DNA of 64,000 bases from Bolinopsis microptera (Eukaryota; Ctenophora; Tentaculata; Lobata; Bolinopsidae). Positions within the stretch are counted from its first letter, which is position 1. Each line of letters begins with the position of its first letter. Under the pieces are notes generated by a model. It made no database searches. It was not told the origin of the DNA and saw nothing but the letters and a program-made list of their open reading frames with translations. Below, one piece after another: positions 17,546-64,000 of the stretch. Position numbers and translations under genes: made by a program. The stretch spans positions 12,985,453 to 13,049,452 of the forward strand of contig NC_087084.1 in NCBI RefSeq assembly GCF_026151205.1. The letters run 5' to 3'.

Positions 17546-17611
17546 GCACAGCAGTCAGCACACGACACAGTAACTGACTACTAACATTTCTCTAGGTAAC
17601 TACCAGTCAAG

Positions 17612-35432: not shown

Positions 35433-37648
35433 TGGGACGTAAACTATTGCAAGCTATAAAAAATATATACAAATATTTCGTTTGTTTGTTTTCAGATTGC
35501 GGATTGCACGGGCATTGCGCACGACTACTTAACCTCCGAAATTTTGAAGCACAACTGCCTACTTATTCATATTGTAGATTCTTCGATAAATTCATAATTT
35601 AATGATGAATCTGATCCGTAGGTCGATGTCTCCATGATGTTGAATTACACGATATTATTTTCTATAGTGATTTATTTGAATCTACCACCTTCGTTTGCCG
35701 GTAAATTTTATATTTCATGTTAGATTTACAAGTTTGAAATAAAATAAAATAAAAAATCAATTAAAACGTTCGGAATTTGCTATTTCAAATCAGTAATATA
35801 CTTATAGGGAACATATGAGTAAAGGAGAATAAATAATATTTTCCCGAATTTTACTGAAAATGCTTCTCAATTTGTTTCAGGGAACAGTAAAGTAAAATTC
35901 CATTTAATGAATAGCGAAGGGGGATACTCCAAGACTAGTTTTGGCGTGGTCTTTGTTAAGGAAAATGAAAAAGTAATATGTTTTTACAAACCGTATTTAA
36001 ATGAAATCATTATTATGTATAGTGTATTGAATCAATACTATTACTAATTGATTAACTATTTAACCAAATTGCTTGAAAGTTTGATAAAAGAAATTTATTT
36101 TACCAAGCTATCATAAGCTGGTAATGGTTTAATAAGCACTTTCATGTTCAACACAATAAGTTTGGAGGTGTTTCATTTTTAAAACTCCCTTACCGATAAA
36201 AATATCACAGCAGGTCGAGTTTCGACATGTCCGTGAACATTTTGTAGCTTCAACCATTAAATAAATGTTTACACATTGAACTTGTATTCCTTATTTTTCT
36301 TCCCATATTTAACAGTAACCCATCCTCAGAAAAGCATCCTAACTTCCGTCCAAGGTAATTCAAAATGCCTTTCTAACCACATATGCCAGACAATGGGTTT
36401 TAAGCAAGCCCTCAGCTTTTTCTCGGGGACCTCTGACTTTGACTATAACATGACAAAACGCTCGCGCTGGGGTAGTATTACACTGGATCATGTCAAGTGT
36501 GATAACGGGACCTCTGGTGCTGACTTTAAGGTTCACGTTAAACGAGCTTTTGATGATTTTAAATATTGGATACTGTTTTGTGAACCGTTAAGAGGTTTGT
36601 GAAGCTGTATATAGGTTTATATAGCTAAGATAGGGAGGTGTTTTATTTTCCTGTCCCAATAAGATACCTAAATGACCACAACTGCACGTTTGTGAATTGT
36701 GTCTAATGCGCGTGAATATGTGAGATGCGGGATGCTAAACGAACAATTTCTAGCAGTTTAGAAACTAGCTGAGAACTAACTCTATTAAATTAGTAAATAC
36801 GTAAATTATCATTACGTTTATAATCACTTATTGACAATTGATATATTCCTACAAATATTCGCAATAATTTATGAATTAATTTAATATTGATTTCAGAGGA
36901 CTGCCCGATAGTTGAAAAGGACAAATTTCTAAAGAAGGTTTGCATTGAGGACCATGGCTACACTGTTCACCAGTGTCATAACTCTAACAGCTACTACGTC
37001 GCTAAGCAGATGGACTATTATAGTATGTTTGATCACATCTGCGAGGTGGACCCTCGTTTCTATCAGAGTTGCGGTGAAGGGAACGATCAACTAACATCAA
37101 ACAATAAAACCCTCTGCGGGGACTACATTTGTGAGCTCCCACCAATTCTTGACCAATATTTAGGTTCATACTCACTCCCCCCAAATATGGCTTGTCAGAG
37201 ACAACCTTGCGATGCTCGACCCTGTTGGAACACTTCAGTCTGCACTAACTTGGACTTATCCGGTCCTGCTTGCACAGATGCAGAGGGCCCAGCAGAGACA
37301 ACTGTCCGGCTAAAGACAGGTATGGTGGTGCCCCAATCCACTGTGTGTAATGGTAAATGTGACGTTCACTACCGCTGCGAGGATGAGGCGCTATGTGGGG
37401 GCTATCTCTATGGAATATATTGTAACAACTACCAAGGAGCACTGAACTATGTTAATCCCGGCGACATGTGTAACGGGGTAGATTCATATTTGTGTCAAAA
37501 TGGTGAGGATGAACGGGAGTGCCCAGATGTAACCAACTTGACTTGGACGGAGAAGTGTACTGCGATGGCAGGAGGTCCGGACGAAGTAAGTGGACTGTTA
37601 ATTGGGATTTCTATTTAGACTTCGTTTTGACGAACTATTATTCGTCAT

Positions 37649-37894
37649 AGTTATATCTAAGCTGTGGTTTACTAACTTCAAACTATTTTAAAGAATGCCA
37701 ATGATTCCATGTCAGTATACTGAAGGACCTAGTTATGTCTAAGCTGTGGTTTACTAACTTCTAACTATGTTAAAGAATACCAATGATTCCATGTCAGTAT
37801 ACTAAGGGACCTAGTTATGTCTAAGCTGAGGTTTACTAACTTCTAACTATGTTAAAGAATACCAATGATTCCATGTCAGTATACTAAGGGACCT
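37649..37894 (+). repeat. Three 82-bp tandem units in intron 4 of gene A
   Basis: Units start at 37649, 37731 and 37813 ('agttat(a/g)tctaagctg'), each ending 'gtcagtatact(g/a)a(a/g)gg'. Confidence 0.92.
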
Positions 37895-38104
37895 AGCTTC
37901 TATTAGGAGGGACTCTCTCCTGGTGATATTGTTTCTGATTTATACTGGTAACCAACCAGAACCCTATCTTGATGAAACAATTTTTCTAAGCCTCATTGTC
38001 CACTAACTGAAACACCACATCCTTATTATTGCTTTTAACCCAGTTGTAAAACTGTTGGCTTATCTAGGGCAGGAACCGAGAGTGCCCATTTTCCCACGGT
38101 TTGT

Positions 38105-38335
38105 CACATTTTGTCAATCTGTCATTATATTCTGTCGAATATTGTCGTATATTGTCATATATTGTCATATATTGTCAAATATTGTCAAATCTTGTCATAT
38201 ATTGTCTGAATAGTATATTGTCGTATATTGTCGTATATTGTCAAATCTTGTCGTTTATTGTCACATCTTGTCATATATTGTCATAGTATTATATTGTCGT
38301 ATATTGTCAAATCTTGTCGTTTATTGTCACATCTT
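38105..38335 (+). repeat. 11-bp minisatellite (ATTGTCATAT-like) in intron 4 of gene A
   Basis: About twenty imperfect units of 'tattgtc(a/g)tat' with occasional 'aaatcttgtc' variants. It ends ~60 bp before the exon 5 acceptor. Confidence 0.92.
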
Positions 38336-41082
38336 GAAATTGTCATGACATTGGGCACTCTCGATTCCTGCCCTAACATGACGTCACCCTAGGTAATCCC
38401 TATCATAAACAGCACGAGATGTGCTGCACTCTGGATGACGCCAGGGGATTACTTTAGTGTCCTCCCCATCTGCACTAACTTCCTGGATCAGACAAATTGC
38501 ACTGATCCTGACAGGTTAATTGAACTTATTCATCAGGACTTATTCAATTAATTAATTTTCGAATTTCATCAACAAATAAACTTGATTGTCAATTCATTGT
38601 ACAACCCCAACACCCACAACAGGGGTATATTGACTTGCAATATAGGAGGATACAGTTCAACTTTGTCAATATATTTGGTGTGTCATGAGTTGACAACAAT
38701 TCCTCGAATGTGCGACGATGGAGTGGGGCAGGTAAACTATCTAACGATTTCTGTAGTGATATTCTACCCCCTGAACTAAATACATTAAAGCCCTAATTCC
38801 ATAACCATAGAAATCCCTTTTTCATTCACATTGTGTCATAAAACTCATCACGGCCCCGGAGTAATAATCTTGTTTCATATAATATGATCTCTCAGGTATG
38901 CGAATCAGTTTCACCGACGTGTTTTATTCACAAACACAGGCTCTGTGACGGTATAAAAGATTGCTTGAATGATGAAGATGAGGATCTAAAATCTTGCAAC
39001 TCCCTTACACAACGAACGTGTCATAGAGCTTACAGACATGAACAACCGCTCAGAATTCCTCTGGCATGGCTTCAAGATGGTGTGAAAGATTGTGTGAATG
39101 GTATTGATGAGGATGATAGCTGGCCAGTTTGCGGTTTTGGACCAACAAAACGATTCATGACCGAAACAAATCCTGTTTGTGATGAAGTTTTCCTTTGTAA
39201 ACTGGGACAAGAGACTAATATGTTGAGTTTCAGGACCTTTGTGGCGGTAAGCAGACTTGCGGTCAAGAAAAAGGGGTGTGTCAAAAATCTCACGAGATTA
39301 CTCCTACCTTTGACAAAGTTTTGACCGTAATAAGATCGGGGCAAAATGAAAAGCGTCTGTTGTACTGCTTGCAAGGACTAAGCGATATTCAACAAATTTC
39401 AGAAAAATGTATAAGAGAAAAAGTAAACTTATCAAGACAAGACATATTTGGAGTAAATTCAGACATCACAGTCGTTTATCCGAATCGAATGATTGACTGT
39501 GACTACACGTTTGGAGAACTCTATTTAATTTTGAGCTGTTCAGGCCGTTGTAAAAACTCGAAATGCCCATTAAAGAAAACTATTAGATACGACGCTTGCC
39601 CTCAGCAATACCCAAACCGGGTTTATACAGTGGCACAAAACTCGTTCCTGACCTTCGTAACGAAAACAAGACACAGGTTACACCAACGATCTCTTTGTAT
39701 GTCGCAATAGCCTTTGTATAACCCAAGACAAAGTTTGTAACGTTGTGGACGACTGTGGAGATGGTTCTGACGAAGAGACCTGTACCAATGTGTTTCGCTG
39801 TCACTCAAAAGAGCGGTTCATTCCAGTAACTGAGAAATGTGATGGAACTGTGGACTGCCTGGACTTCTCGGATGAATGTAACTCAGACTGCGGTAAAACT
39901 ATCGTTCAACAAACCTTACTCAAGTTTCTGTGTTTGATGTTTGGGATTTTAGCGATAATTTTTAATCTCGTGACAATTTGTAAAACCAGATTTGCTGACA
40001 AATATAAGGATACTACAGCTATGAGGACTAGACTATTGGTGTTTCTGATCTCCGTTGGAGACTTCCTAATGGGTGTATATTTGCTGTGGTTGGCTGTCAA
40101 CGACATGATTGTGTACGACGCAAATTACTGCTGTAACCAGCTCGTTTGGCTGTCAAGCTTTGGTTGCTCAGTTATTGGTGTTATCAGCACGATTGGGAGT
40201 CAATTGTCATTATTTTCCATGACTGCTCTCAGCATTGTTCGCATAGTTTGGGTAAACAGGACACATAACACGAGGAGGAAAGTTACAAATAAAGAAATTC
40301 TGCAGATAGTTTTGGTGATGGCGGCGATTTTAGTGATATCAGTGACCATAGCAGTGGTCCCCTTGGTGCCTTATTTTGAGGATTTCTTTGTGAATGGTAT
40401 GACGTATAACCCTTCAGTAAGATTGTTCATAGGGGCACCAGGGAAAGAGGCTCATCTTGGTATACTGCAAGAATACTACGGGAAAATAAAATCTGGGACT
40501 CTCAGCTGGAGAATTATAAACGATCTCGTTGATGGAATATTTTCCAATGATTATGGAGGTGATATTCTCCGCCGAAAGAAACTTGAATTTTATGGAAATG
40601 ATGGTGTTTGCCTCTTCAAGTTTTTCGTAAAACCAACTGATCCACAAAGATTTTATACTTGGATCATTCTATCGATAAACATGCTCTGTTTTATCATCAT
40701 CTCAGTATCCTACGTGTACATCAACGTTACAGCTAATGCAGTCAGCCAGAAAATTGGAAACAGAAACAGAAAGCTACAACAACAAATATCACTAATCATT
40801 GTAACAGATTTCTTCTGTTGGCTACCTATTGTCATCGCATGCTGCCTTCATTCCAGTGAAGTTACCAACGCCACACCCTGGTACCCAATCATTTCAATAA
40901 TTTTTCTACCTATAAACTCGGTTATCAACCCTTTACTGTACAGTGATTTCGTTACAGATGTTGCAAGTTTAGGATTCAAAATGGTGGGAGAAGCAAGGAA
41001 GTGTGCACTTGAGATGGACGCGGAAAGTGATCAGCCAACAGAGATAGAAATGCAAACCTTCGACAGAACACCAGTTCAATAT

Positions 41083-41575
41083 TTCCAAGATGATATTGAA
41101 CAGGACAAAACATCCGATAAAGTATTTCAGGATTTTCAAGATGACATCGAACAAGGCAAAACATCTGTTAACGCAGTTCAAGTTTTCCAAGATGACATCG
41201 AACAGGACAAAACATCTGTTAACGCAGTTCAAGATTTACAAGATGATTTGAAACAAGACAAAACATCTGTTAACGCAGTTCAAGTTTTCCAAGATGATTT
41301 GGAACAAGACAAAACATCTGTTAACGCAGTTCAAGTTTTCCAAGATGATTTGGAACAGGACAAAACATCTGTTAACGCAGTTCAAGTTTTCCAAGATGAT
41401 TTGGAACAAGGCAAATTATCTGTTAACGCAGTTGAAGTTTTCCAAGATGATTTGGAACAGGACAAAACATCTGTTAACGCAGTTCAAGTTTTCCAAGATG
41501 ACATCGAACAGGACAAAACATCTGTTAACGCAGTTCAAGATTTACAAGATGAGATCGAATCTGAAATCAGATTAG
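41083..41575 (+). repeat. 51-bp coding tandem repeat, tail of receptor A
   Basis: About ten units encoding a 17-residue motif such as QVFQDDLEQDKTSVNAV. Unit-to-unit DNA identity is very high for the middle copies. Confidence 0.95.
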
Positions 41576-41865
41576 ATACAACTCGTGATTGATTATTACA
41601 GTCGTGACATTAGAATAAGTCATGAAGTTGTTGAAGCAGAAAATTGTCCAAGATCGATTTATTTATATTATACATCATATCATATTATTGTAATTTTTAG
41701 ATACGTTAGACAATTGTTCGGTATAAACTTCTTCCATTTGATTGAAATATCCTCATGCTACTCTAAAATGCAAAAGATTCTTGATTAAAAAACATAACTC
41801 AATCTTCAAAACTAACTTTACTCTCAAATTTCTAACCGTTCTAAAATCTGCAAGTGGATACCGCT

Positions 41866-42030
41866 CTAGAGTCCTCATAGTATGGGTCCGGTAAGGGAGT
41901 TCCGCTCTAGAGTCCTACCCTGGCGATTTGACTCCGCTCTAGGGTCCTACTTCCGACCAAGTCGGCTCTACAGTCCCCCGCTCTAGAGTCCCCCGCTCTA
42001 GAGTCCCCCGCTCTAGAGTCCTACAGCCGA
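41866..42030 (+). repeat. Tandem 'ccgctctagagtcc' repeat
   Basis: Seven or so irregular units of 'cgctctagagtcc(c)'; the last three are near-perfect 15-mers. Located between receptor A and the LINE fragment. Confidence 0.9.
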
Positions 42031-42184
42031 TTGTTCTATTCATTTGGTTGTCTTTTCACTTTTGTGACTCATACATTTAGTCTTGGGGACAAGCTGATAG
42101 TTTATAATATAATTTATGATTAATTGATGAATTTTGCGAATATTTAACTTATGTTTTATTTGGTATTAAAATAAAAATTAGGAT

Positions 42185-43863
42185 AGTAGTAGAAGAGTTC
42201 CTGGACTGGTCGAAGAAAATGAAGGCTAAACCATCGAAGTGCCTGTCTATGTCTATGAAGTGTACTGGAGGAAAGTACAACACCTATGATGCAGAGTTTG
42301 TACTAAGCGAACAACAGGTGCCGTCCATTATCCAAGCACCAATGAAGTTCCTAGGAATGTACATGTATGTAGATCTTGAGGTGAAGGAAATTCGGTCCAT
42401 GATTAAGAAGAAGTTAGAGGACCTTTTGGAAACAACGTCTAATGATGAAATCACCGGTCCAATGAAGGCGTGGGTGTATAACCACCTCATCATTAGTAAG
42501 ATGTCATGGGGGTTTACTGTTTATAACCTGCCCATCACATTTGTGAGAGAGCTTGAGGCACTGTGTAACAGATACCTTAAGAAGTGGCTAGGGTTTGCGT
42601 ATCCTTCTACCACCACCGTCCTCTACAGGAGTAGAGACCAGAAAGGATTGCAGCTGAAAAACATCTGCACTGAGTACAAAGTCATCCAACTTATTAAGGG
42701 ACACCAACTTTGTAACTCAAGTGACCCCTACATCAAAAAAGTGTACTCTAACCATAAGGCTATTGCAGACACACAGAAGATGTGGTCTTATCCCAAAGAG
42801 CTGAAAGACCGTCAGCGCCAACTTTACTTCCAAGAGTTAGTTGGAAAACCTGCAGTTGGTACAACTGGCCTCGTGTATGGGACAAGATATGAGGACACAT
42901 CAGAGAGGAAACTGCTAACCAACATGGTGAGGACCTTTGATGAAGAGACACTTATTTGTTCACTTTTTGACAAAAAGCGGCAAAACCTCTTTCTCACATG
43001 GGAAAATACAATGACATTTGACACCACGTGGAATAACCTGATCTATCAACTTAGCCCGGAACTGGTTTCATGTCAATGCTATCCATGACACTGCGTCAAC
43101 ACCTAGCAACCTAAAGCTTTGGAATAAAGCCGTTTCAGGAAACTGTAAACTCTGCAGCAAACAAGGGACACTCAATCATATCCTCACGTTCTGCAAGGTT
43201 GCACTAAGACAGGGACGTTTCAACTGGCGCCATGATCAGGTCCTACGTGAAATCATGAAGACTGTTTCATCACAGATTGAAGAGTTTAATTCCGACATCG
43301 CCAAGGAATCGAAGAGGGCACCGTCGGTCTTTCACAAGGCAGGCAATAAGCGCGAGAAGGTTACCTTAGCTGACCCAACTCATCATAAGACCCAAAGATA
43401 TTTCTTTTCAGATGCCAACGACTGGAAGATAATATTTGATGGGGATGAGAGACAGAGGAACTTCTCGCAGCACATTGCAGCTACACCACTAAGACCTGAT
43501 GTAGTGATCTATTCAGATAAAGCAAAGAAGGTTTATCTAATGGAGCTGACTTGTGGAAATGAGCAGAATTTTGCTGATCAAGAGAAGCGAAAGATGAAGA
43601 GATATCAGCAGCTGACAGAAGAGATAGAAGCCAACGGATGGGCTTGCAAGCTCCAGACAGTAGAAGTGGGAGCTCGAGGCATTTACAACTATAGCCTCCC
43701 AACCTTTATGAACCACCTGAACGTAAACAACAAAGAGAAGAAGAAGGCCTGCATGAAGATCGCTGAGATCAGCCTGAGGGCATCGTATACCATCTATTTG
43801 TCCAGAAACAATACCATATGGACAGATGATTGGGAGTTAGTCAAGAGACCAGTAATAGCATAG
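42185..43863 (+). pseudogene. 5'-truncated R2-type LINE: RT C-terminus, zinc knuckle, restriction-like endonuclease
   Basis: Begins inside the RT with EEFLDWSKKMKAKPSKC and continues through the thumb (APMKFLGMYMYVD, ISKMSWGFTVYNLP). A frame change near 43060 is followed by the CKLCSKQGTLNHILTFC zinc knuckle with downstream RHDQVLREI. The C-terminus has RPDVVIYS ... VYLMELTCGNEQN, matching the PD-(D/E)xK restriction-like endonuclease of R2-type elements. The RT catalytic box and N-terminus are absent. Stop at 43861-43863 (TAG). It lies between receptor genes A and B, in the same orientation. Confidence 0.8.
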
Positions 43864-44149
43864 TAGGAGCGTAGAATGTTTGGACCCAGAAAAACATGTT
43901 TAATACCGCTATGAACCCGTCATAAGCCGGGGACTACCATGAAAGTGATGATGCTGTGTTGTTGAAAGACCTTCGACCAATCAAAGATGCACCTCATCAC
44001 GCCAAGCAGTTATGCTTGTAGGTGAATATACACTTATAGAGTACAACAACTTTATAACACTCCTTCTTAGTTACAGAGCACTGTTTTTGTTCTTGATGCC
44101 GTATAAAATATTATATAGTGGTCAAATCATCCAGCCATTTTTTTGATGC

Positions 44150-45854: not shown

Positions 45855-48800
45855 ATGCTAAATTACACGATTCTCTTATCAATATTAGTGATCCATAATG
45901 TACGATCATCTTTGACCGGTAGGTTGTACAATTCTTAATTTGAAATATGTTAACCCAACTTGAATTAACAGTTTAAGCGCTTTATTGGCTCTTTTTGGAT
46001 CTTTATAATTTATATTTTCGATGCAGATGAGGTCAAACATTATCCAAACTCTAGAATCTAGGCTCCTTGACGTTAGGACCGTACAAAATAAGTGCAATCA
46101 ATACTTTCGGCGAAATTTTTATGTTTTGTTCCTCATGATTATTTGTGGTTCTCGTGAATTGGACAGCAACATAAGTATTGCTAATTTGTTGCAGGGAACA
46201 GTGGAATTAAATTTCATTTGGTGAACAGTGGAAACAGACTTTCTACTAACAGCTTTGGGGTGATCTTTGTTGAAGAAAATGAAGAGGTAAAACCTTTTTT
46301 TCGTGATATTAAATACTCATAATTGTTATGCGACCTAATTTTTGAATGTTTGATGGAAAACTCAACATGACAACATGTTCACATATCATAGGAAGGATAT
46401 TGTTCGCTGTCCTTGTGACTTCTTCCTTAACGAAATCTCGAAATGTCACAAAGGAACACGGTCTTTGAGCACCGTCCTGATTTAAGAAACTGAAATTGGA
46501 CCATATTCCCTCTTATTTTTGTTGCATTATATTATAAAAGTTTCTCATCTTCAGATAATGCCCCTTGCAAACATCTACGGAGACTCCAAATGCCTTTCTG
46601 ATCACATGTGCCAAAGAATGGGTTTTACTAAGGCCATCAGCAGCTTTTCGGGGGAAGCCAAGTTTGATTATCACAGTGCGAAAGTTGAAGGAAACTGGAC
46701 ACATGCTCAGCTGGACGTAGTCAAGTGTGACTATACTATAGACGGATCCCTTGATGTGGACGTTCAGCTCAAGCGTAAACTATCTTCATTGATGATTCCC
46801 ACAGATAGTTGGATGCTCCTGTGTGAACCAGTAATAGGTTTTTTACAAACCAATTTTTTTCTTATTTTGAATGATCAACATATTCTTGATCTATAAATTA
46901 AAAATATCCAGTTATAATTAAAATCCATTTCAGAGGACTGCCCGATAGTTGAAAAGGGCAAATTCCTAAAGAAGGTTTGCATTGAGGACCATGGTTACAC
47001 TGTTCACCAGTGTCATAACTCTAACAGCTACTACGTCGTTAAGCCGATGGACTATTACAATATCTTTGATCACATCTGCGAGGTGGACCCTCGTTTCTAT
47101 CAGAGTTGCGGTGAAGGGAACGATCAATTATCATCAAACAATAAAACCCTCTGTGGGGACTACATTTGTGAGCTCCCACCAATGCTTGACCAATATCTAG
47201 GTTCATATTCACTCCCCCCGAATATGGCCTGTCAGAGACAACCTTGCGATGGTCGACCCTGTAGGAACACTCCAGTCTGCACTAACTTGGACTTATCCGG
47301 TCCTGCTTGCACAGATGCAGAGGGCCCAGCAGAGACAACTGTCCGGCTAAAGACAGGTATGGTGGTGCCCCAATCCACGGTGTGTAATGGTAAATGTGAC
47401 GGTCACTACCGCTGCGAGGATGAGGCGCTATGTGGGGGCTATCTCTATGGAATATATTGTAACAACTACCAAGGAGCACTGAACTATGTTTATCCCGGCG
47501 ACATGTGTAACGGATTGGATTCGTATTTGTGTGCAAATGGTGAGGATGAACGGGGGTGCCCAGATGTAACCAACTTGACTTGGACGGAGAAGTGTAAAAT
47601 GTTTGATACACGGTTAGGAGGAGGTGTGTGGGTCAGGGTAAGTTAGCTGTAATATCTTGATTCACTTTCTTATTTCATGGGCCCAGCAAAACGTTTAGCA
47701 AGTCTGTGACCACTGATTCTGTCGAAGGGCTTCTTTCAGGATGGGCTTTCCAATGCAACCATACAATTTTCACATATGTTAACATTAATAAGTGGACTAT
47801 GAATATAGTTCACAGTCAACACTACCTACAGCTACTGATGACAGAAACATGGTAAAGAATTAGGCTAAAACCAAAATTTAAAAAGCTATGAATTTTCGCT
47901 GAAAGAAAAGCTTTCAGCTTTTAATCTGTCCATCAACTGAGGAAACCATGCGACCCACCACCTCTAACATAGTGACCTCCCAGGTGAGCTCTATAATAAA
48001 CAGTACAAGATGTGTAGCACCCTGGAAAAAACCTGCCAACGCCTTCCCGATCATTCCGCTATGTGCTAACTTCTGGGACCAGACAAATTGCACTGATCCA
48101 AACAGGTTAAATTACTGAATTTAATTTCTTTGTTTTTAATTCTAATATTCTAACCTACTGAGCCAATTTGAATTGCAAGGAAAATGTTTTTTATTGTAAT
48201 CCTGATACTCAATAGGGGTATCTTGACTTGCAATATAGGAGGATACAAGTCAACTGTGTCAAGATTTTTGGTGTGTCATAGATTGACAACCATTCCCAGA
48301 CTATGCGACAGCGGAGTTGACCAGGTAAGAATCTTCAACTATTTCTCCTTAAATAAAATTTCAGGTAAGTAATAGAGTTAAAGCCCCAATTATAAAGGTT
48401 TATTACTCAACTAATCAATCTTTTCACAATTTTCAGGCGTGCGAGTTAGCTTCACCGACGTGTTTCATTCACAAACACAGGCTCTGTGACGGCATAAAAG
48501 ATTGCCTGAATGATGAAGATGAGGATCTAAAATCTTGCAACTCCCTAACACAACGAAAGTGTCATAGAGCTTACAAACATGAACAACCGCTCAGAATTCC
48601 TCTGGCATGGCTTCAAGATGGTGTGAAAGATTGTGTGAATGGTATTGATGAGGATGATAGCTGGCCAGTTTGCGGTTTTGGGCCAACAAAACGATTCATT
48701 ACCAAAACAAATCCTGCTTGCGACGAGGTTTTCCTTTGTAAACTGGGACAAGAGACTAGATACGTTGAGTTTCAGGACCTTTGTGGCGGTAAGCAGACTT

Positions 48801-51097
48801 GCGGTCAAGAAAAAGGGGTGTGTCAAAAATCTCACGAGATTACTCCTACCTTTGACAAAGTTTTGACCGTAATAAGATCGGGGCAAAATGAAAAGCGTCT
48901 GTTGTACTGCTTGCAAGGACTAAGCGATATTCAACAAATTTCAGAAAACTGTATAAGAGAAAAAGTAAACTTATCAAGACAAGACATATTTGGAGTAAAT
49001 TCAGACATCACAGTCGTTTATCCGAATCGAATGATTGACTGTGACTACACGTTTGGAGAACTCTATTTAATTTTGAGCTGTTCAGGCCGTTGCAAAAACT
49101 CGAAATGCCCATTAAAGAAAACCATTCGATACGACGCTTGCCCTCAGCAATACCCAAACCGTGTTTACACAGTGGCACAAAACTCTTTCCTGACCTTCGT
49201 AACGAAAACAAAACACAGTTACACCAACGATCTCTTTGTATGTCGCAACAGCCTTTGTATAACCCAAGACAAAGTTTGCAACGTTGTGGACGACTGTGGG
49301 GATGGTTCTGACGAAGAGACCTGTACCAATGTGTTTCGCTGTCACTCAAAAGAGCGGTTCATTCCAGTAACTGAGAAATGTGATGGAACTGTGGACTGCC
49401 TGGACTTCTCGGATGAGTGTAACTCAGATTGCGGTAAAAATATCGTTCAACAAACCTTCCTCAAGATGTTGTGTTGGATTTTGGGGATATTAGCAATACT
49501 TTTTAATCTCATGACATTCTGTCGGACCTGGGCTGTCGTTGAAGATAAGAACACTACGGTTATGAGAAACAGGCTCTTGGTGTTTCTGATCTCCGTTGGA
49601 GACTTCCTAATGGGTGTATATTTGCTGTGGTTGGCTGTCAACGACATGATTGTGTACGGGGCAAATTACTGCTCCAACCAGCGCGTTTGGCTGTCAAGCT
49701 TTGGTTGCTCAGCTATTGGCGTTATCAGCACGATTGGGAGCCAATTGTCATTATTTTCAATGACTGTTCTCAGTATTGTCCGCATAGTTGGGGTAAACAG
49801 GAAAATCAACACGAGGAGGAAAGTTACAAATAAAGCAATTATGCAGATAGTTTTGGTGATGGCGGCGATTTTAGTGATATCAGTGACCATAGCAGTGGTC
49901 CCCTTGGTGCCTTATTTTGATGATTTCTTTGTGAATGGTATGACGTATAAACCTTCAGTAAGATTGTTCATAGGGGCACCAGGGAAAGAAGCTCATTTAG
50001 ATATACTACAAGAATACTACGGGAAAATAAAATCTGAGACTCTCAGCTGGAGAATTATAAACGATCTCGTTGATGGAATGTTTTCCAATGATTATGGAGG
50101 TGACGTTCTCGGCCGAAAGAAACTCGAGTTTTATGGAAATGATGGGGTTTGCCTCTTCAAATTTTTTGTAGAACCAAATGACCCACAAAGATTTTATACT
50201 TGGACTATTCTGGCGATTAACGTTTTATGTTTTATCATCATCTCAGTATCCTACGTGTACATCAACGTTACAGCTAATGCAGTCAGCCAGAAAATTGGAA
50301 ACAAGAACAGAAAGCTACAACAAAAAATATCACTGATCATTATTACAGATTTCTTCTGTTGGCTACCTATTGTCATCGCATGCTGCCTTCATTCCAGTGA
50401 AGTTATCAACGCCACACCCTGGTACCCAATCATTTCAATAATTTTTCTACCAATGAACTCGGTTATCAACCCTTTACTGTACAGTGATTTCGTGGCAGAC
50501 ACTGTAAGTTCAGCGCTTAAATGGTCGAAAACGGTAGTGAAACGGAAGTGTGCTCATGTGCCCACAGATACGGACATTGCTGCAGGAGATGGTCACCCAA
50601 AAACGGGGGTACTCATGAAAACAGAAAGCAAAAAATCAGGAAGAAATGTGAAGAATGTGCAATATGATACTGGAGGAAGCATCAAAACTGATAACAAAGT
50701 TCAAGATATGCAAGATGTTATCGAACAAGACAAAAACCCTAATAATCGAGTTCAAGATGTGCATGATGAAATTGAACAAGGCGAGAATACTGATAGCCAA
50801 GATGTTCAAGATGACATCGAACGGGGCGAGAAAACTGATACTCTGGTAAAAGATGTTCAAGATGACATCGAACAAAACGAGAAAACTGATACTCAGATAA
50901 AAGATGTTCAAGATGACATCGAAAAAGACGAGAAAACTGATACTCTGGTAAAAGATGTTCAAGATGACATCGAACAAGACGAGAAAACAGATACTCTGGT
51001 AAAAGATGTTCAAGATGACATCGAAAAAGACAAGAAAACTGATAATCTGGTAAAAGATGTTCAAGACGTCCAAGATAATATTGAACAGGGAAACTGA
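45855..51097 (+). CDS. Receptor B: intact SRCR-like/LDLa class-A GPCR with 17-residue tail repeats
   Basis: Exons by hand: 45855-45918, 46195-46286, 46555-46837, 46934-47637, 47984-48105, 48216-48324 and 48437-51097, summing to 4035 nt (1344 residues). Residues 1-21 are a signal peptide. Exons 2-3 (to ~146) resemble a divergent SRCR domain (IKFHLVNSGN, CLSDHMCQRMGFTKAISSFS, LDVVKCDY). Exons 4-7 hold a Cys-rich ectodomain ending in two clear LDLa modules (CNVVDDCGDGSDEETC, CDGTVDCLDFSDEC; ~726-790). Seven helices span ~801-1142: FNL in helix 1, SVGDFLMG in 2, CWLPI in 6, NPLLY in 7, and FYGNDGVCLF in loop 2 as in relaxin/LGR-type receptors. The helix 3 arginine motif is VRI, without the usual acidic residue. 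The tail (~200 residues) ends in about eight DVQDDIEQDEKTDTLVK-type repeats. Ligand unknown; likely a plasma-membrane receptor. Confidence 0.82.
50696..51097 (+). repeat. 51-bp coding tandem repeat, tail of receptor B
   Basis: About eight units of the 17-residue motif KDVQDDIE(Q/K)DEKTDTLV; the first two are degenerate, the last is truncated to the stop. Confidence 0.93.
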
Positions 51098-52247: not shown

Positions 52248-55200
52248 ATGACTAAAATCATAATCCTTCTCATCGTCTCAGGAGTGGTGACAGTAGGCTC
52301 AGCTTCAGGCAAGCATATTGAGCAAGGTTAGGTTATTGTATCCAATCCGACGGTCGATGGCTCTATGTTGTTGATTTACACGATACTATGTACGCACCAT
52401 ACTCCCCAATTCTACTTTCAACTGAACAGTTAAAGATAATATGTTACAGGGGGCAAGGAGCTAACATTTCATCTGGTGAACGGAAGTATAGACTTGTCTA
52501 CTAGTGGCTTTGGAATTTTCTTTGCTCAAGATGGAAATAAAAGGGTATGTCATTAAAATTGCTATGTTAGAGCTATATTAGCCATCATATTGGATCAACA
52601 AAAAATGTTTGTGCTACTAATGAGTTTGTGTATATAATATACTTCAGTCATCATCATTATCAAATATTTGTCCATATTTAGAGTGTTTCGATTTATCATT
52701 TTATTTCATCTTAAAGTTAGTTTTCTTGAACAATTAGTTTTTTTTGAAAATTGTTCAATTGGCTACCTTCTCAAGAATATTACTATCATGTGATATATAA
52801 AGATGCCGATATAGAGATTCGCTTCCGAACTGTCTATTATCGACCTCCACGGAAATATTTCCACACTGAAAATGAACTGAGTTCCCTATTATTTCTTTCG
52901 AACATAACATTTACTCAATATTCATTTTCAGATAATTCCTGTTACAGATATCCAAGGATATTCCGAATGCTTTTTTGACCATATTTGCCAAAAAATGGGT
53001 TTTGAGGAAGGAATTAGTGGGTTCGTGGGGACAGTTAGGTTCGAGAAGAAGAACCCATACCGCAAAAGTGCCGTGTTAGATAACATAAAATGTGATTACA
53101 AATCAGACGGAACCGCTGAAGCTCACTATAATTTTGGAATTTCAAAAAAGAATGGGGATGCTCAGAGATCTGATCCAAGTTATTGGATACTGTTGTGTGG
53201 ACCGATGAAAGGTTTGTTGGTGATTGTTTGGCAAATTATAGGTTAAATGCCGACCGGCTATTACAGTCGGCCGTTACGGTAACAGCCCTCTCACAGCCCT
53301 ATCAAAACACAAGTAAGCGTCTAATAGTAGACGATATGGCGATTAACTGGCTGTTAGAGGGCTGTTACCGTAACAGCCGGCTATTCTAATAACATCACAT
53401 ATTTTTTTAAGAATATTCCACACTATAGTTGAATTTTTTCCTTTTCACCCTTTTGAAAAAAGGCAATAGTGAAAGGTTACGAATGGACGTTTTTGCAGAA
53501 AAACGTGGATTTTGGAGATTGCAGTAGGTGAGTCTGAATATGTCGTCAGTCCTTCCTTACTTCCGTTAGTAACCATGCAACGAAAAAGTTGCGCGCGCGA
53601 GGATTGCTTGCGGAGATGTGATGTATAGATAGCCTGTGATCTATGAATGCGCGGCGCAACTGTGTTTTAATGTATACGATGTAATGTATAATATTAGGTT
53701 ATAAGCCCAATTTGTACGTGGCACGCGTAGTGTATTGATGTGTACACGAGTATAGTTACCTTTGCTTACAATTTAAGTTCTTTGCTTTACAAGTTAAGTT
53801 CTTTGGCAATTGAACTGAATTTCAAGTGTTTCCTCAATTCCTGTACTTAATGCATAATTTATCAATATTATTATCATGAAGACTGAAGTGAGCTGATTGG
53901 AGCTTATACTTAAATTTATAGTAAATGTGAAATGGAAATCTAGCGTCCGCCAAAACGAAACAACGGGCGCAATTCTTGTTTATAATAACATTGGTTTAAG
54001 TTCAACCGTGGTTTTTCACGTAGGGTAATATATGCATTTTCTACGCGCTGCTGATAATAAGAGCAATACCGAAAGTGCATTTTGGTGCTGACAATTTTTA
54101 AGCCGCGCCACAACTTTAAATTCTCAGCTGAATGTTTGTTTCCAACAAACTTAGACGCAAAAATTGAAGCCATTTATAAGGTTGCAGTTAAAAATATACT
54201 AAAAATTCAAAATACCCTTTTTAAGTTTGCGTTGCTTTCAGAGGACTGTGCGATAGTCAATAAAAACAACTACTTGAAGAAGCGTTGCATCGAGGACCTC
54301 GGTTACTCAGTCCACCAGTGTCACAGCTCAAACAGTTACTTCGTGGTTAAAACGTGGGAAACGCAAAGATTAAGTGTGTTTGACCGGATCTGTGAAGCAG
54401 ATCCTTATTTCTATCAGACTTGTGGTGAAGGGATCCATAACCTAGCATCGAACAATCTAACCCTGTGCGGGGACTACATGTGTAAGCAACCGCCACCGCC
54501 TAAAAAGACCTTATCCAGCTACTCGATACCCCCAGATATGGCCTGTCAGAGACAACCTTGCGATTCTCGGCCCTGTTGGATTACTCCAGTCTGCACTAAC
54601 TTGGATCTGACTGGTGCTGCCTGCATAGATTCACAGGGACCAGTAGAGACAGCTGTCCGACTGAGGACAGGTATGGTGGTGCCCCACTCCTCCCTGTGTA
54701 ATGGTATATGTGACGTTCACTTCCGCTGTGAGGATGAGGCAGAATGTGGGGGCTATCTCTATGGAAGATTCTGTTATGTAGAAGGGCAGCCGAGACCAAA
54801 CTACGCTTATCCCTCTACAATTTGTGACGGGGGTATTTCGCACTTGTGTGAAAATGGGGACGATGAATTCGAATGTCCGAATAATATAACTGATTTGCCT
54901 TGGACGGAGAAGTGCGAATCCTTTACGAGCAGTTTGGTTAGTGAACTGCTATTTCTATTGAGAGTTTGGTTAGTGAACTGCTATTTCTATTGAGAGTTTG
55001 GTTAGTGAACTGCTATTTCTATTGAGAGTTTGGTTAGTGAACTGCTATTTCTATTGAGAGTTTGGTTAGTGGACTGCTATTTCTATTGAGAGTTTGGTTA
55101 GTGAACTGCTATTTCTATTGAGAGTTTGGTTAGTGAACTGCTATTTCTATTGAGAGTTTGGTTAGTGAACTGCTATTTCTATTGAGAGTTTGGTTAGTGA

Positions 55201-58200
55201 ACTGCTATTTCTATTGAGAGTTTGGTTAGTGAACTGCTATTTCTATTGAGAGTTTGGTTAGTGAACTGCTATTTCTATTGAGAGTTTGGTTAGTGAACTG
55301 CTATTTCTATTGAGAGTTTGGTTAGTGAACTGCTATTTCTATTGAGAGTTTGGTTAGTGAACTGCTATTTCTATTGAGAGTTTGGTTAGTGGACTGCTAT
55401 TTCTATTGAGAGTTTGGTTAGTGAACTGCTATTTCTATTGAGATTTTGGTTAGTGAACTGCTATTTCTATTGAGAGTTTGGTTAGTGAACTGCTATTTCT
55501 ATTGAGAGTTTGGTTAGTGAACTGCTATTTCTATTGAGAGTTTGGTTAGTGAACTGCTATTTCTATTGAGAGTTTGGTTAGTGAACTGCTATTTCTATTG
55601 AGAGTTTGGTTAGTGAACTGCTATTTCTATTGAGAGTTTGGTTAGTGAACTGCTATTTCTATTGAGAGTTTGGTTAGTGAACTGCTATTTCTATTGAGAG
55701 TTTGGTTAGTGAACTGCTATTTCTATTGAGAGTTTGGTTAGTGGACTGCTATTTCTATTGAGAGTTTGGTTAGTGGACTGCTATTTCTATTGAGAGTTTG
55801 GTTAGTGGACTGCTATTTCTATTGAGATTTTGGTTAGTGAACTGCTATTTCTATTGAGAGTTTGGTTAGTGAACTGCTATTTCTATTGAGAGTTTGGTTA
55901 GTGAACTGCTATTTCTATTGAGAGTTTGGTTAGTGAACTGCTATTTCTATTGAGAGTTTGGTTAGTGAACTGCTATTTCTATTGAGAGTTTGGTTAGTGA
56001 ACTGCTATTTCTATTGAGAGTTTGGTTAGTGAACTGCTATTTCTATTGAGAGTTTGGTTAGTGAACTGCTATTTCTATTGAGAGTTTGGTTAGTGAACTG
56101 CTATTTCTATTGAGAGTTTGGTTTGAATAGAACTTTAATGATTGATGATATTTGAACACCATATAATATGTATTATATACTATTATATTATATGTAGAAA
56201 TGTAAAAGACGTCATAGCACACCGCCAGGTAAAAGTAAGAGGTAAAACTGCTGCAAACTTAGAGAAATATGTAGCAATACACACCCAATTGAGGGCGGTT
56301 TAGCTTATAAGACAGCTGCAAATATACCGGATCCAAACAGCAGGATCCTGGTAAAATTTATCATAATATGAACATACTTCAATGAAGCAAAAGGAGTAAT
56401 TCACATAAATTATGAAACCAAATTGAAATTCAGTTTGGTGAACAAAGAACACCAAACTGTAGATACTGCATTTAATCCACTTCTAAAACTCGCAGCTGTT
56501 CTAATCAAACAACACCTTAGCAACAACACCCTAGCAACAACACCCTAGCAACAACACCCTAACAACAACACCCTAACAACACCCTAACAACACCCTAGGT
56601 AAGAGCTATTGTTAACCGTACAAGATGTGTAGCAGCCTGGAGAAAACTTACCAACATTTACAGAATTATACCTATGTGTAACAACTTTTGGGACCAGACG
56701 AATTGCACTGATCCAAATAGGTTTATTGACCGAATAGGCGTTGAATTCAATTTTACTTATATTTATAACTGAATTACGGATATAATTCTATTTGAAAAAG
56801 AAGATTGTTACTAATTGTAACCCCACAACACCCACAACAGGGGTATATTGACTTGCAACATAGGAGGATACAGTTCAACTTTGTCAATATATTTGGTGTG
56901 TCATGAGTTGACAACAATTCCTCGAATGTGCGACGATGGAGTAGGTCAGGTAAGAATCTTCAACTGTCTCTCTTAAATAAAATTTTACCATTTCTGATGG
57001 TTTATGTTTACATCTGCAATAATTTAAATGCTTTTTTATTTAACTGCGAACCTTTGGTCCAATTGGTCCAAATAACTATTATAATATGTATATAATTATA
57101 ACTTTTAAGATTCGTGTAAACAATTCTATAATTGAAATTAAACACACAATAAAATGGTTTCGTATAATGTGATCTCCCAGGTATGTGAATCAGTTTCACC
57201 GACGTGTTTTATTCACAAACACAGGCTCTGTGACGGCATAAAAGATTGCCTGAATGATGAAGATGAGGATCTAAAATCTTGCAACTCCCTAACACAACGA
57301 ACGTGTCATAGAGCTTACAGACATGAACAACCGCTCAGAATTCCTCTGGCATGGCTTCAAGATGGTGTGAAAGATTGTGTGAATGGTATTGATGAGGATG
57401 ATAGCTGGCCAGTTTGCGGTTTTGGGCCAACAAAACGATTCATTACCAAAACAAATCCTGTTTGCGACGAGGTTTTCCTTTGTAAACTGGGACAAGAGAC
57501 TAGATATGTTGAGTTTCAGGACCTTTGTGATGGCAAAGATGCTTGTGGTCGAGAAAAGAGAGCTTGTCAAAAATCTCATGAGATGACTCCTACCTTTGAC
57601 AAAGTTTTAACCACAGTCAAATTTGGAAAAAGTGAAAAGCGCCTAATGTACTGCTTGCAAGGACTCACAGACATACAGAAACTTTCCGAAACGTGCGTGA
57701 GGAAGGAAGTGAATTTAACAAAACAGGACGTTTTTGGAGTAAATTTAGATATCACAGTCGTTTATCCGAATAAAATGTTTAACTGTGACTACACATTTGG
57801 GGAACTCTATTTAATTTTGAGCTGTTCAGGCCGTTGTGAAAATTCTACTTGTCCATTAAAGGAAATTTATCGATTCGACGCTTGCCCTCAGCAATACCCA
57901 AACCGGGTCTACACAGTGGCACAAAACTCATTTCTCACATTCGTCACGAAAACAAGACACGGTTACACCAACGATCTCTTTGTATGTCGCAACAGCCTTT
58001 GTATAACCCAAGACAAAGTTTGCAACGTCGTGGACGACTGTGGAGATGGTTCTGACGAAGAGACCTGTACCAATGTGTTTCGCTGTCACTCAAAAGAGCG
58101 GTTCATTCCAGTAACTGAGAAATGTGATGGAACTGTGGACTGCCTGGACTTCTCGGATGAATGTAACTCAGACTGCGGTAAAAATATTGTTCAACAAACC

Positions 58201-61200
58201 TTCCTCAAGTTCATGTGCTGGTTGTTGGGGATTTTAGCGGTCCTTTTTAATCTCATGACCATTTGTCGAACTTGGTTTGCCGCCGAAGATAAGAACACTA
58301 CGGTTATGAGAAACAGGCTCTTGGTGTTTCTGATCTCCGTTGGAGACTTCCTAATGGGTGTACATTTGCTGTGGTTGGCTGTCAACGACACTATTGTGTA
58401 CGGGGAAAATTACTGCTCCAACCAGCTCGTTTGGCTGTCAAGCTTTGGTTGCTCAGCTATCGGCGTTATCAGCACGATTGGAAGCCAGATGTCATTACTT
58501 TCCATGACTTTTCTCAGTACAGTACGAGTAGCTGGGGTCAACAAGAAAAACACGTCGAGGAGGAAAGTTAAAAATAAAGCAATTCTAAAGATAGTTTCGG
58601 TGATGGCAGCGATTTTATTGATATCAGTGACCGTAGCAGTGGTCCCTTTGGTCCATTATTTTGATGATTTCTTTGTGAATGGTATGACGTATAAACCTTC
58701 AGTAAGATTGTTCATAGGGGCACCAGGGAAAGATGCTCATCTTGGTATACTACAAGAATACTACGGGAAAATAAAATCTGGGACTCTCAGCTGGAGAATT
58801 ATAAACGATCTAGTTGATGGAATGTTTTCCAATGATTATGGAGGTGACGTTCTCGGCCGAAAGAAACTCGAGTTTTATGGAAATGATGGTGTTTGCCTCT
58901 TCAAGTTTTTTGTTAAACCTAATGACCCACAAAGATTTTATACTTGGACAATCCTGGCGATGAACATGCTCTGTTTTATTATCATCTCAATATCTTACAT
59001 ATACATCAACATTACAGCTAATGCAGCCAGCCAGAAAATCGGAAACAAGAACAGAAAACTACAACAAAAAATATCACTGATCATTGCGACCGATTTCTTC
59101 TGTTGGTTACCTATTGTCATCGCATGCTGCCTTCATTCCAGTGAAGTTATCGACGCCACACCCTGGTACCCAATGATTTCAATAATATTTCTACCAATAA
59201 ACTCGGTTATCAACCCTTTACTGTACAACGATTTTGTAGCGAATTCTGCAAGTTCACTGTTTAAGTGGTTGGAAACAACTCTGAAACCAAAGTGTGCTCA
59301 AGAAGTGCCTGCTGATCCGGGTGATGGTATTGGTCACCCTACCACAGGGATACACGTAAAAACACTCACCAGGAAATCGGAAAACAATGTGCAGAATGTG
59401 GTAAATAACGTTGAACAAGGTAAGAAAACCGATAGCCCATATCAAAATGTGCAAGTTCACATTGAAGGAAGCGAGAAAACCCATAGCACAGTTAAAAATG
59501 TGCAAGTTCACATTGAAGGAAGCGAGAAAACCCATAGCACAGTTAAAAATGTGCCAGTTCAAAATGACATTGAACAAGATCCAGTTCAAGATATGCGAGA
59601 TAACGTTGAACAAGGTAAGAAAACCGATAGCCCATATCAAAATGTGCAAGTTCACATTGAAGGATGCGAGAAAACCCATAGCACAGTTAAAAATGTGCTA
59701 GTTCAAAATGACATCGAACAAGATCCAGTTCAAGATATGCGAGATAACGTTGAACAAAGTAAGAAAACCGATAGCCCATATCAAAATGTGCAAGTTTACA
59801 TTGAGCGAGGCGAGAAAACCCATAGCACAGTTAAAAATGTGCTAGTTCAAAATGACATCGAACAAGATCCAGTTCAAGATATGCGAGATAACGTTGAACA
59901 AGGTAAGAAAACCGATAGCCCATATCAAAATGTGCAAGTTTACATTGAAGGATGCGAGAAAACCCATAGCACAGTTAAAAATGTGCTAGTTCAAAATGAC
60001 ATCGAACAAGATCCAGTTCAAGATATGCGAGATAACGTTGAACAAGGTAAGAAAACCGATAGCCCATATCAAAATGTGCAAGTTTACATTGAGCGAGGCG
60101 AGAAAACCCATAGCACAGTTAAAAATGTGCTAGTTCAAAATGACATCGAACAAGATCCAGTTCAAGATATGCGAGATAACGTTGAACAAGGTAAGAAAAC
60201 CGATAGCCCATATCAAAATGTGCAAGTTTACATTGAGCGAGGCGAGAAAACCCATAGCACAGTTAAAAATGTGCTAGTTCAAAATGACATCGAACAAGAT
60301 CCAGTTCAAGATATGCGAGATAACGTTGAACAAGGTAAGAAAACCGATAGCCCATATCAAAATGTGCAAGTTCACATTGAACGAGGCGAGAAAACAGATA
60401 ACCCAGATCAAGAGGTGCAAGATGAAATTGGACATGGTAAGAAAAAGACTGATGATCAAGATCAAGACGATATTGAACAAAGGAAGAGCACTGATAACTC
60501 AGTTCAAAATGTGCAAGTTCACATTGAACGAAGCAAGAAAACTGATAACTCACACCAAGATGTGCAAGATGACATTGAAGGAAGCGAGAAAACCCATAGC
60601 ACAGTTCAAGATGTGCAAGATGACATTGGACATGGTAAGAAAAAAACTGATGATCAAGATCAAAAGGATATTGAACAAAGCAAGAAAACTGATAACTCAG
60701 TTCAAGATGTGCAAGATGACATTGGACATGGTAAGAAAAAAACTGATGATCAAGATCAAAAGGATATTGAACAAAGCAAGAAAACTGATAACTCAGTTCA
60801 AAATGTGCAAGTTCACATTGAACGAAGCAAGAAAACTGATAACTCACACCAAGATGTGCAAGATGACATTGAAGGAAGCGAGAAAACCCATAGCACAGTT
60901 CAAGATGTGCAAGATGACATTGAAGGAAGCGAGAAAACCCATAGCACAGTTCAAGATGTGCAAGATGACATTGAAGGAAGCGAGAAAACCCATAGCACAG
61001 TTCAAGATGTGCAAGATGACATTGAAGGAAGCGAGAAAACCCATAGCACAGTTCAAGATGTGCAAGATGACATTGAAGGAAGCGAGAAAACCCATAGCAC
61101 AGTTCAAGATGTGCAAGATGACATTGGACATGGTAAGAAAAAAACTGATGATCAAGATCAAAAGGATATTGAACAAAGCAAGAAAACTGATAACTCAGTT

Positions 61201-62229
61201 CAAGATGTGCAAGATGACATTGGACATGGTAAGAAAAAAACTGATGATCAAGATCAAAAGGATATTGAACAAAGCAAGAAAACTGATAACTCAGTTCAAA
61301 ATGTGCAAGTTCACATTGAAGGAAGCGAGAAAACCCATAGCACAGTTCAAGATGTGCAAGATGACATTGGACATGGTAAGAAAAAGACTGATGATCAAGA
61401 TCAAGACGATATTGAACAAAGGAAGAGCACTGATAACTCAGTTCAAAATGTGCAAGTTCACATTGAACGAAGCAAGAAAACTGATAACTCAAACCAAGAT
61501 GTGCAAGATGACATTGGACATGGTAAGAAAAAGACTGATGATCAAGATCAAAAGGATATTGAACAAAGGAAGAGAACTGATAACTCAGTTCAAAATGTGC
61601 AAGTTCACATTGAACGAGGCGAGAACACTGATAACTCATACCAAGATGGGCAAGATGACATTGGACATGGTAATAAAAAGACTGATGATCAAGACGATAT
61701 TGAACAAAGGAAGAGCACTGATAACTCAGTTCAAAATGTGCAAGTTCACATTGAACGAAGCAAGAAAACTGATAACTCACACCAAGATGTGCAAGATGAC
61801 ATTGAACATGGTGAGAAAAAGACTGATGATCAAGATCAAGAGGATATTGAACAAAGCAAGAGAACTGATAACTCAGTTCAAAATGTGCAAGTTCACATTG
61901 AACGAGACGAGAACACTGATAACTCACACCAAGATGTGCAAGATGAAATTGGACATGGTGAGAAAAAGACTGATGATCAAGATCAAAAGGATATTGAACA
62001 AAGGAAGAGCACTGATAACTCAGTTCAAAATGTGCAAGTTCACATTGAACGAGGCGAGAACACTGATAACTCATACCAAGATGGGCAAGATGACATTGGA
62101 CATGGTGAGAAAAAGACTGATGATCAAGATCAAGAGGACATTGAACAAAGGAAGAGAACTGATAACTCACACCAAGATGTGCAAGATGACATTGGACATG
62201 GTGAGAAAACAGATGATCAAGATGGGTAA
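52248..62229 (+). CDS. Receptor C: intact SRCR-like/LDLa class-A GPCR with a ~1000-residue repeat tail
   Basis: Exons by hand: 52248-52326, 52450-52544, 52932-53211, 54242-54936, 56599-56720, 56841-56949 and 57181-62229, summing to 6429 nt (2142 residues). Signal peptide MTKIIILLIVSGVVTVGSA. Domain order is as in receptor B; LDLa pair at ~726-790, seven helices ~802-1143 with SVGDFLMG, CWLPI and NPLLY. Helix 3 has VRV in place of DRY. Loop 2 carries an ~85-residue insertion before FYGNDGVCLF. The tail (~1144-2142) is made of more than 50 variants of a 17-residue unit (QDVQDDIEGSEKTHSTV, QNVQVHIERSKKTDNSH), strongly charged and probably disordered. Such a tail is far longer than usual for class-A GPCRs. 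Intron 4 is bounded by splice-site-bearing minisatellites. The frame stays open through all repeats, arguing for selection on the tail. Confidence 0.82.
53250..53386. mobile_element. Short palindromic MITE in intron 3 of receptor C
   Basis: 'gttacggtaacagccctct' near the left end is mirrored by 'agagggctgttaccgtaac' near the right, with CCGGCTATT/AATAGCCGG-like outer ends and a ~60-bp loop. Confidence 0.8.
54933..56124 (+). repeat. 32-bp minisatellite, 37 units, at the 5' splice site of intron 4 of receptor C
   Basis: The unit is 'tttggttagtgaactg' plus 'ctatttctattgagag', repeated 37 times with only two recurring variants ('gtggactg', 'gagatttt'). The first unit begins at the last exon codons: TTTG is exonic and GTTAGT is the donor. 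Each further unit therefore repeats the exon-end/donor sequence inside the intron. The array ends at 'tttggtttgaat'. Confidence 0.95.
56514..56598 (+). repeat. 11-14-bp repeats ending at the intron 4 acceptor of receptor C
   Basis: Units of 'aacaacaccctag' / 'aacaacaccctaa' shorten to 'aacaccctaa' and finish in 'aacaccctag', whose AG is the splice acceptor used before exon 5. Two earlier intact 'ccctag' copies precede it. Confidence 0.9.
59395..62229 (+). repeat. Coding repeat array in the tail of receptor C with 144-bp higher-order units
   Basis: More than 50 units of about 51 bp. From 59601 to 60321 they are organised into 144-bp (48-residue) higher-order repeats: 'taacgttgaa' recurs at 59601, 59745, 59889, 60033, 60177 and 60321. 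A second block (60838-61100) is five or six copies of a single 51-bp unit. All unit lengths are multiples of three, so other frames on both strands also stay open. Confidence 0.95.
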
Positions 62230-63877: not shown

Positions 63878-64000
63878 CTGTTTAGTTTTTATCAGTTTAA
63901 AGTTTTACAAGTTTAAATACAAAAATGAATCAGATATTAGCAATGTAAATAATGTCAGATCAGCGGTACTAAAATGTAATCCGATATCGGTTAATGAATT

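Follow-up and report, generated by a model that had tools for sequence, protein, structure and literature searches.

On domain content, the closest described relatives of the receptor genes considered here appear to be the LDLRR-GPCRs (GPCR, G protein-coupled receptor) of Ciona intestinalis and GRL101. According to the accessible part of PMC2396169, the Ciona receptors carry tandem LDLa repeats and a seven-transmembrane (7TM) domain of the relaxin receptor or leucine-rich repeat-containing GPCR (LGR) type, lack leucine-rich repeats (LRRs) and form a lineage-specific expansion with 14 confirmed members. A 64,000-nucleotide stretch of the genome of the ctenophore Bolinopsis microptera (contig NC_087084.1, positions 12,985,453 to 13,049,452; hereafter the window, with coordinates counted from its first nucleotide) holds three tandem genes, A, B and C, in whose family the same combination was found, namely repeated LDLa and a relaxin/LGR-type 7TM with no detected LRR. 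With at least 158 loci, this family is more than ten times the size of its Ciona counterpart, and it adds an SRCR-like domain at the N-terminal tip; the word SRCR occurs nowhere in the main text of PMC2396169. The present family also has a cysteine-rich region and a long second extracellular loop (ECL2). With a probability of about 0.6, genes A, B and C (A possibly broken) are members of a large ctenophore family of LGR/relaxin-receptor-like class A GPCRs that would sense macromolecular cues.

Other known receptors share parts of this architecture. In GRL101 and the type C2 LGRs of molluscs and echinoderms, an LGR-type 7TM is likewise preceded by more than one LDLa module (PMC6267866, PMC11863921, PMC2396169, in their accessible portions), but GRL101 retains LRRs, whereas none were found in the present family, and those portions name no SRCR domain for GRL101 or the type C2 LGRs. 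RXFP1/RXFP2 and the glycoprotein hormone receptors (LGR types C1 and A) supply the best PDB sequence matches to the present 7TM among the best 60 of 224 listed. Compared with them, the present family has several LDLa modules, a long ECL2 and an SRCR-like tip, and no LRR was found in it. RXFP1 itself has an LDLa module, which acts in its activation (accessible text of PMC4837482). An SRCR domain joined to a seven-helix receptor, as here, is described in the available text on sponge (PMC4302439) and amphioxus (PMC2246102) receptors, but those belong to the Adhesion class, whereas the present family matches 7tm_1 and neither GPS nor 7tm_2 was seen in Pfam scans of the window genes or of 14 relatives. 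Within ctenophores, GPCR clades are reported to have radiated independently (PMC13231562), and a large SRCR expansion with novel domain combinations is reported from Mnemiopsis (PMC11797021), where the legend of a C-type lectin panel lists LDL alongside SRCR and 7TM; both statements come from the accessible portions of these sources. The initial annotation of the window knew of no named family with this domain order and, in agreement with it, no description of the complete SRCR, LDLa and LGR-type 7TM architecture was found in the accessible open-licence literature, supplements aside; the architecture may nonetheless be described elsewhere.

Exons were joined at GT-AG sites, with introns 2-6 scored against intronless relatives and intron 1 placed by open frame alone. 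The resulting models, all on the + strand, are as follows.

35634-35700, + strand: gene A exon 1, signal-peptide-like start, open from its ATG, GT-AG phase-1 join to exon 2 with two further joins possible
35881-36594, + strand: gene A exons 2 (35881-35972) and 3 (36330-36594), SRCR-like domain, from scored joins and hidden Markov model (HMM) matches
36897-37585, + strand: gene A exon 4, cysteine-rich region that by eye contains LDLa-like motifs
38393-38731, + strand: gene A exons 5 (38393-38514) and 6 (38623-38731), cysteine-rich, scored joins
38896-41589, + strand: gene A exon 7, LDLa modules, 7TM and 17-residue repeat tail
45855-45918, + strand: gene B exon 1, signal-peptide-like start, two further joins possible
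46195-46837, + strand: gene B exons 2 (46195-46286) and 3 (46555-46837), SRCR-like domain, scored joins and HMM matches
46934-47631, + strand: gene B exon 4, cysteine-rich region, 3' end at a less certain join
47984-48324, + strand: gene B exons 5 (47984-48105) and 6 (48216-48324), cysteine-rich, scored joins
48437-51097, + strand: gene B exon 7, LDLa modules, LGR-type 7TM, 17-residue repeat tail and stop
52248-52326, + strand: gene C exon 1, signal-peptide-like start, phase-1 join, alternative starts and joins exist
52450-53211, + strand: gene C exons 2 (52450-52544) and 3 (52932-53211), SRCR-like domain, scored joins and HMM matches
54242-54936, + strand: gene C exon 4, cysteine-rich region, 3' end at a less certain join
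56599-56949, + strand: gene C exons 5 (56599-56720) and 6 (56841-56949), cysteine-rich, scored joins
57181-62229, + strand: gene C exon 7, LDLa modules, LGR-type 7TM, repeat tail of about 1000 residues and stop

All three genes thus share a seven-exon layout running from a signal-peptide-like start through the SRCR-like domain and a cysteine-rich/LDLa array to the 7TM and the repeat tail, and the three tandem paralogs are present with the layout and domain order that had been proposed. The adopted joins have the intron phases suggested earlier (1, 0, 1, 0, 2, 0). Introns 2/3, 3/4, 5/6 and 6/7 score best at phases 0, 1, 2 and 0 in A, B and C. At the 4/5 junction, phase 0 is the sole join available in A and ranks second to phase 1 in B and C, where it was adopted because it is consistent with A; at intron 1 the phase-1 join is available in every gene, with alternatives in each. 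Once joined, gene C encodes 2142 residues with no internal stop, the length given before, and gene B is open throughout for 1342 residues, not 1344. Compared with B, exon 7 of gene A contains two one-base frame breaks, near 39217 and 39676, which would mark either a pseudogene or an assembly error. Most of intron 4 of gene C is occupied by a 32-base unit repeated in 37 near-identical copies (54931-56123) that begin at the exon 4 donor.

The family is placed by its 7TM. In genes A and B, LDLa and 7tm_1 exceed their Pfam cut-offs; for gene C the 7TM call is based on exon 7, which is 89% identical to that of B across 377 codons spanning the 7TM. Among 14 relatives scanned with Pfam, 7tm_1 passes its cut-off in all and LDLa in 13, the exception being L043 (22.2 bits against 24.1). 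At the thresholds used, the LDLa matches fall into one to five separate stretches, and by eye further LDLa-like motifs of a more degenerate kind can be made out. The 7tm_1 matches would make these class A (rhodopsin-type) GPCRs. A 30-row 7TM profile was compared with the PDB, for which the best 60 of 224 matches were listed. LHCGR (9.6e-28), FSHR (3.2e-25), RXFP1 (3.6e-25) and TSHR (1.4e-23) lead this list, the LGR block that includes TSHR extending from 9.6e-28 to 1.5e-23, and are followed by 8w1z (1.2e-15; labelled merely as a family 1 profile protein), LGR4 (1.3e-9) and the best rhodopsin (2.4e-9). Indeed, the first eleven of the 60 comprise two LHCGR, two FSHR, one RXFP1 and four TSHR entries, 8w1z and LGR4, and only then comes rhodopsin, a ranking that bears out the LGR/relaxin-type 7TM of the initial annotation.

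Between TM4 and TM5, 92 profile positions (169-260) stand opposite 20 LHCGR residues (495-514), and the proline at the end of TM4 is separated from the ECL2 cysteine by 82-86 residues in all 30 rows; this long ECL2 is conserved. A search of the PDB for a known domain in the long ECL2 of gene B returned nothing convincing (best E 0.8). GP120 rows in the Pfam scans, all under the cut-off, were taken as chance. R3.50, W6.48, P6.50 and two loop cysteines are invariant in all 30 rows, where the position labels, like D/ERY below, follow the usual conventions. NPxxY is conserved as well, its invariance being partly a product of how the rows were chosen, through a motif search.

The resemblance to RXFP1 and the glycoprotein hormone receptors, the LGRs to which the 7TM is closest among the best 60 of 224 PDB matches, raises the idea that these are LGR-type receptors for ctenophore peptide hormones or neuropeptides that expanded together with the peptidergic system. 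This seems unlikely. At least 158 copies appear many for hormone receptors, no LRR family was matched in A, B (E up to 1) or the 14 relatives (E up to 1 or 0.01), the LRR being the hormone-binding part of LGRs, and we know of no peptide receptor with an SRCR tip. In its favor, relaxin-type peptides activate starfish type C1 LGRs (accessible text of PMC11863921), and 538 full-length Mnemiopsis GPCRs served as input for peptide-receptor prediction (accessible text of PMC9525235).

The architecture depends on the SRCR-like exons and the 7TM exon belonging to one gene. It was addressed by searches of the organism's own assembly (264.65 Mb in 232 contigs, of which C1-C13 are the large scaffolds; fetched relatives carry L-numbers). 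A 120-residue ligand-binding piece of one glutamate receptor from this assembly finds its best matches in ctenophore structures, ML032222a (5cmc, 1.1e-33) and 4zdm (2.1e-23), with NMDA receptors behind at 1.6e-16; a longer query from that gene put kainate receptors first, probably because the ctenophore entries contain just the binding domain. Exon 7 of gene B gave at least 63 matches (61 of 689 candidates scored) and its exon 4 at least 148 (150 of 338 candidates scored). Exon 3 gave 12 at E up to 10, seven of them at 1.4e-8 or below; four of the remaining five (E 0.024 to 0.56) fall inside long open frames in which exon 4 and exon 7 are matched too, for instance one of 1199 codons on scaffold C1. 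In one group of relatives (L010-L020, 11 fetched), ten carry the SRCR-like, cysteine-rich, LDLa and 7TM parts in single open frames of 1196-1246 codons; the frame of the eleventh, L020, is split. An HMM built from the 11 N-termini of this group, with the window sequences excluded, matched exon 3 in all seven intron-bearing genes (E 1.4e-12 to 8.6e-8; 5.1e-11 in gene A). Exon 2 was matched at 0.0013 (gene A) to 0.0069 across A, B, C, L006 and L008, and more weakly in L005 (0.017) and L009 (0.02). L047, at first sight a relative of 2802 residues, was rejected as such, its tail being a run of N.

Clear Pfam SRCR domains also occur beside family members. A genome search with the Pfam SRCR model gave at least 150 matches (150 of 344 candidates scored). 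Three of these, at C5:5676844, C12:9249944 and C5:5993915, reach 50.6, 50.6 and 49.3 bits against a cut-off of 26.1, and each lies directly upstream of a family member on the same strand. The two C5 loci read as three exons, N-terminal, SRCR core and cysteine-rich in turn, with introns that by eye sit at the positions of introns 2 and 3 of genes A-C. Because of the ten single-frame relatives and the three members with a Pfam SRCR directly upstream, the SRCR-like and 7TM exons are read as parts of one gene encoding one protein, and the linkage proposed for them is borne out at the level of genomic sequence. That the models are chimaeras, with SRCR-like exons and 7TM exon drawn from separate genes or from pseudogenes, is very improbable: all parts share one open frame in those ten relatives, B and C are open once joined and the 7TM evolves with a ratio of nonsynonymous to synonymous rates (dN/dS) below 1. 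Such chimaerism would fit the frame breaks of gene A and the stops found inside the 7TM match in 6 of 111 rows of one genome search and 9 of 110 of another, and the exon joins are taken from genomic DNA.

Comparison of profiles suggests that the tip may be akin to SRCR domains. Aligned by hhalign with six ordinary, non-family SRCRs of the same genome, the SRCR-like N-termini reach a probability of 95.7% (E 8.6e-9). A profile of those six sequences matches exon 3 of gene A at 0.00054 and that of gene C at 0.0098, and gives weak matches upstream of the frames of L041 and L047 (0.0056 each). The SRCR of L054, which is the genome's best Pfam SRCR match, scores poorly with this profile, so the profile covers one SRCR type only.

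Across the genome, 13 scaffolds (C1-C13) carry at least 158 loci of the family, a count obtained by merging 61, 111 and 110 search rows, joining starts within 2.5 kb and excluding two short fragments. This figure is a lower bound for matches that takes in partial and broken copies and that false assembly duplication could inflate; some rows have much shorter open frames. Exon 4 matches occur also on C14, C64 and C221. At 60 kb spacing the loci resolve into 99 singletons and 24 clusters. A purely tandem expansion was rejected, and tandem clustering is not the main pattern of the family because those 99 loci have no found neighbor within 60 kb; the earlier picture of a tandemly expanding family thus applies to A, B and C themselves, but the family as a whole is mostly dispersed. 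Two members, C5:5673671 and C12:9246771, have equal scores in three genome searches and slightly different ones in the exon 7 search, which suggests either that one was recently copied from one scaffold to the other or that the assembly is in error.

The C-terminal tails are variable and often carry tandem repeats. As had been noted, those of the three window genes are built of such repeats, with 51-base units in A and B and 51-, 144- and 147-base units in C. Identity between two periods is at least 0.75 in 16 of 42 evaluated tails, in a repeat-rich genome where several tails end at the locus edge and L027 gave none. By eye there are eight differing unit types (A-C with four close relatives; L021; L030; L033; L037/L038; L040; L041/L042; L043), and L033 has a repeat tail that its near relative L035 lacks. 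It thus seems that tails gained differing tandem repeats several times. An SRP54_N match in the tail of gene C (25.0 bits, cut-off 22.4, with no single stretch passing) was taken as a repeat effect.

In a tree of 41 rows (excluding gene A, L020, L027, L031 and L047), an intron-rich subfamily of six rows stands beside a single-frame subfamily of ten, each supported at 100/100 and apart from 25 others. Joins across introns 4-6 were made for A-C; the fetched single-frame members that belong to other groups carry exons 4-7 within a single frame. Between A and B, synonymous divergence (dS) is 0.10 in exon 4 and 1.56 in exon 3; gene A exon 4 is 95% identical to B in DNA. Exon 6 of A and C encodes identical protein, and its block is 95% identical in DNA. 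More generally, blocks of 89-95% DNA identity between A and B and between A and C coincide with single exons. Because divergence differs exon by exon, we infer gene conversion between these neighbors, whose exons look mosaic.

For the 7TM, dN/dS is 0.10-0.55 and below 1 in all 22 evaluated pairs (24 tried), which shows purifying selection. For the SRCR region it is 0.18-0.80 and exceeds the 7TM value in all 12 pairs that have both, pairs that are non-independent and of which three have dS near or above 1; the distal domain is accordingly the faster-changing of the two. Positive selection on the tip, as judged from A, B and C, was rejected (exon 3 dS 1.0-1.6, dN/dS below 0.5).

These rates also bear on a scavenger or endocytic role, in which SRCR and LDLa modules would clear particles and the 7TM would serve as an anchor or internalization unit with little G-protein signaling. 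SRCR and LDLa are binding modules, part of the family has long, variable tails, and the acidic residue at 3.49 is missing in all 30 profile rows, a departure from D/ERY by which coupling may be unusual. Even so, such a role is decidedly improbable, as the 7TM shows the low dN/dS just given, below the SRCR value in every pair compared, and R3.50 and W6.48 are kept.

The missing acidic residue is likewise one of several points that weigh against a cue-sensing receptor family with an SRCR-like tip. In the window, the Pfam SRCR model matches exon 3 of gene A alone, at 15.1 bits and E 0.03, with no match at E up to 1 in B or C, so that the SRCR-like exons of all three genes fall under the cut-off; because of this, SRCR-like, the term chosen by the initial annotation, is the right wording. 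The profile of ordinary SRCRs does not match exon 3 of gene B at E up to 1. Among six further members, two (L051, L053) have an SRCR-like exon in the 4 kb upstream, and in four none was detected over that distance. Relaxed constraint could account for the faster change of the tip, and the interpretation is drawn from genomic sequence.

Under the favored interpretation of a macromolecule-sensing LGR/relaxin-receptor-like family, the distal SRCR-like and cysteine-rich modules would bind an extracellular macromolecule (a protein, a glycan or a lipoprotein). Binding would be relayed to the helices by the long ECL2 and the LDLa modules closest to the membrane, as LDLa does in RXFP1, and the helices would couple to a G protein via the conserved R3.50, W6.48 and NPxxY, with the repeat tail forming a disordered cytoplasmic extension under weak constraint. 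The large copy number, together with a tip that diverges and a core that is conserved, suggests that a wide variety of cues is detected. The present evidence would be compatible alike with sensory, immune and peptide-hormone roles. The innate-immune or self-recognition role that the initial annotation put forward as speculation was not adopted as the function, the SRCR similarity being no more than suggestive of immunity. A more ambitious and distinctly tentative proposal is that of a ctenophore-specific recognition system, in which a fast-diverging SRCR/cysteine-rich tip on a constant signaling core homogenized by gene conversion would form a main repertoire for sensing prey, microbes or kin, in a phylum with poorly known chemoreceptors and immune receptors.

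The remainder of the window holds several further features. On the - strand at 4197-7141, a reverse transcriptase (RVT_1, 6.7e-22) with an endonuclease domain (4.9e-10) at its side resembles a non-LTR retroelement, and at 29257-30156, also on the - strand, a weak RNase H match (9e-5, under the cut-off) is possibly retroelement debris. Between A and B, 42120-43863 on the + strand contains two overlapping open frames, the second with a weak zf-RVT match (4.2e-5, under the cut-off) and the first with none, possibly a decayed retroelement. A 1028-codon open frame with ankyrin repeats (Ank_2, 3.5e-36) lies at 17600-20683 on the + strand, partly across a 99-base tandem repeat. Similarity to 3-hydroxyacyl-CoA dehydrogenase follows right after gene C (63605-63904, - strand), and positions 107-441 consist of 67 perfect copies of a 5-base unit.

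Taken together, a family of at least 158 loci may be among the largest receptor repertoires of ctenophores and offers a concrete gene set for testing. An LGR-type core that lacks detected LRRs and is fed instead by LDLa and SRCR modules suggests that this form of receptor originated, or survived, outside the lineages in which an LRR-less form has been described.

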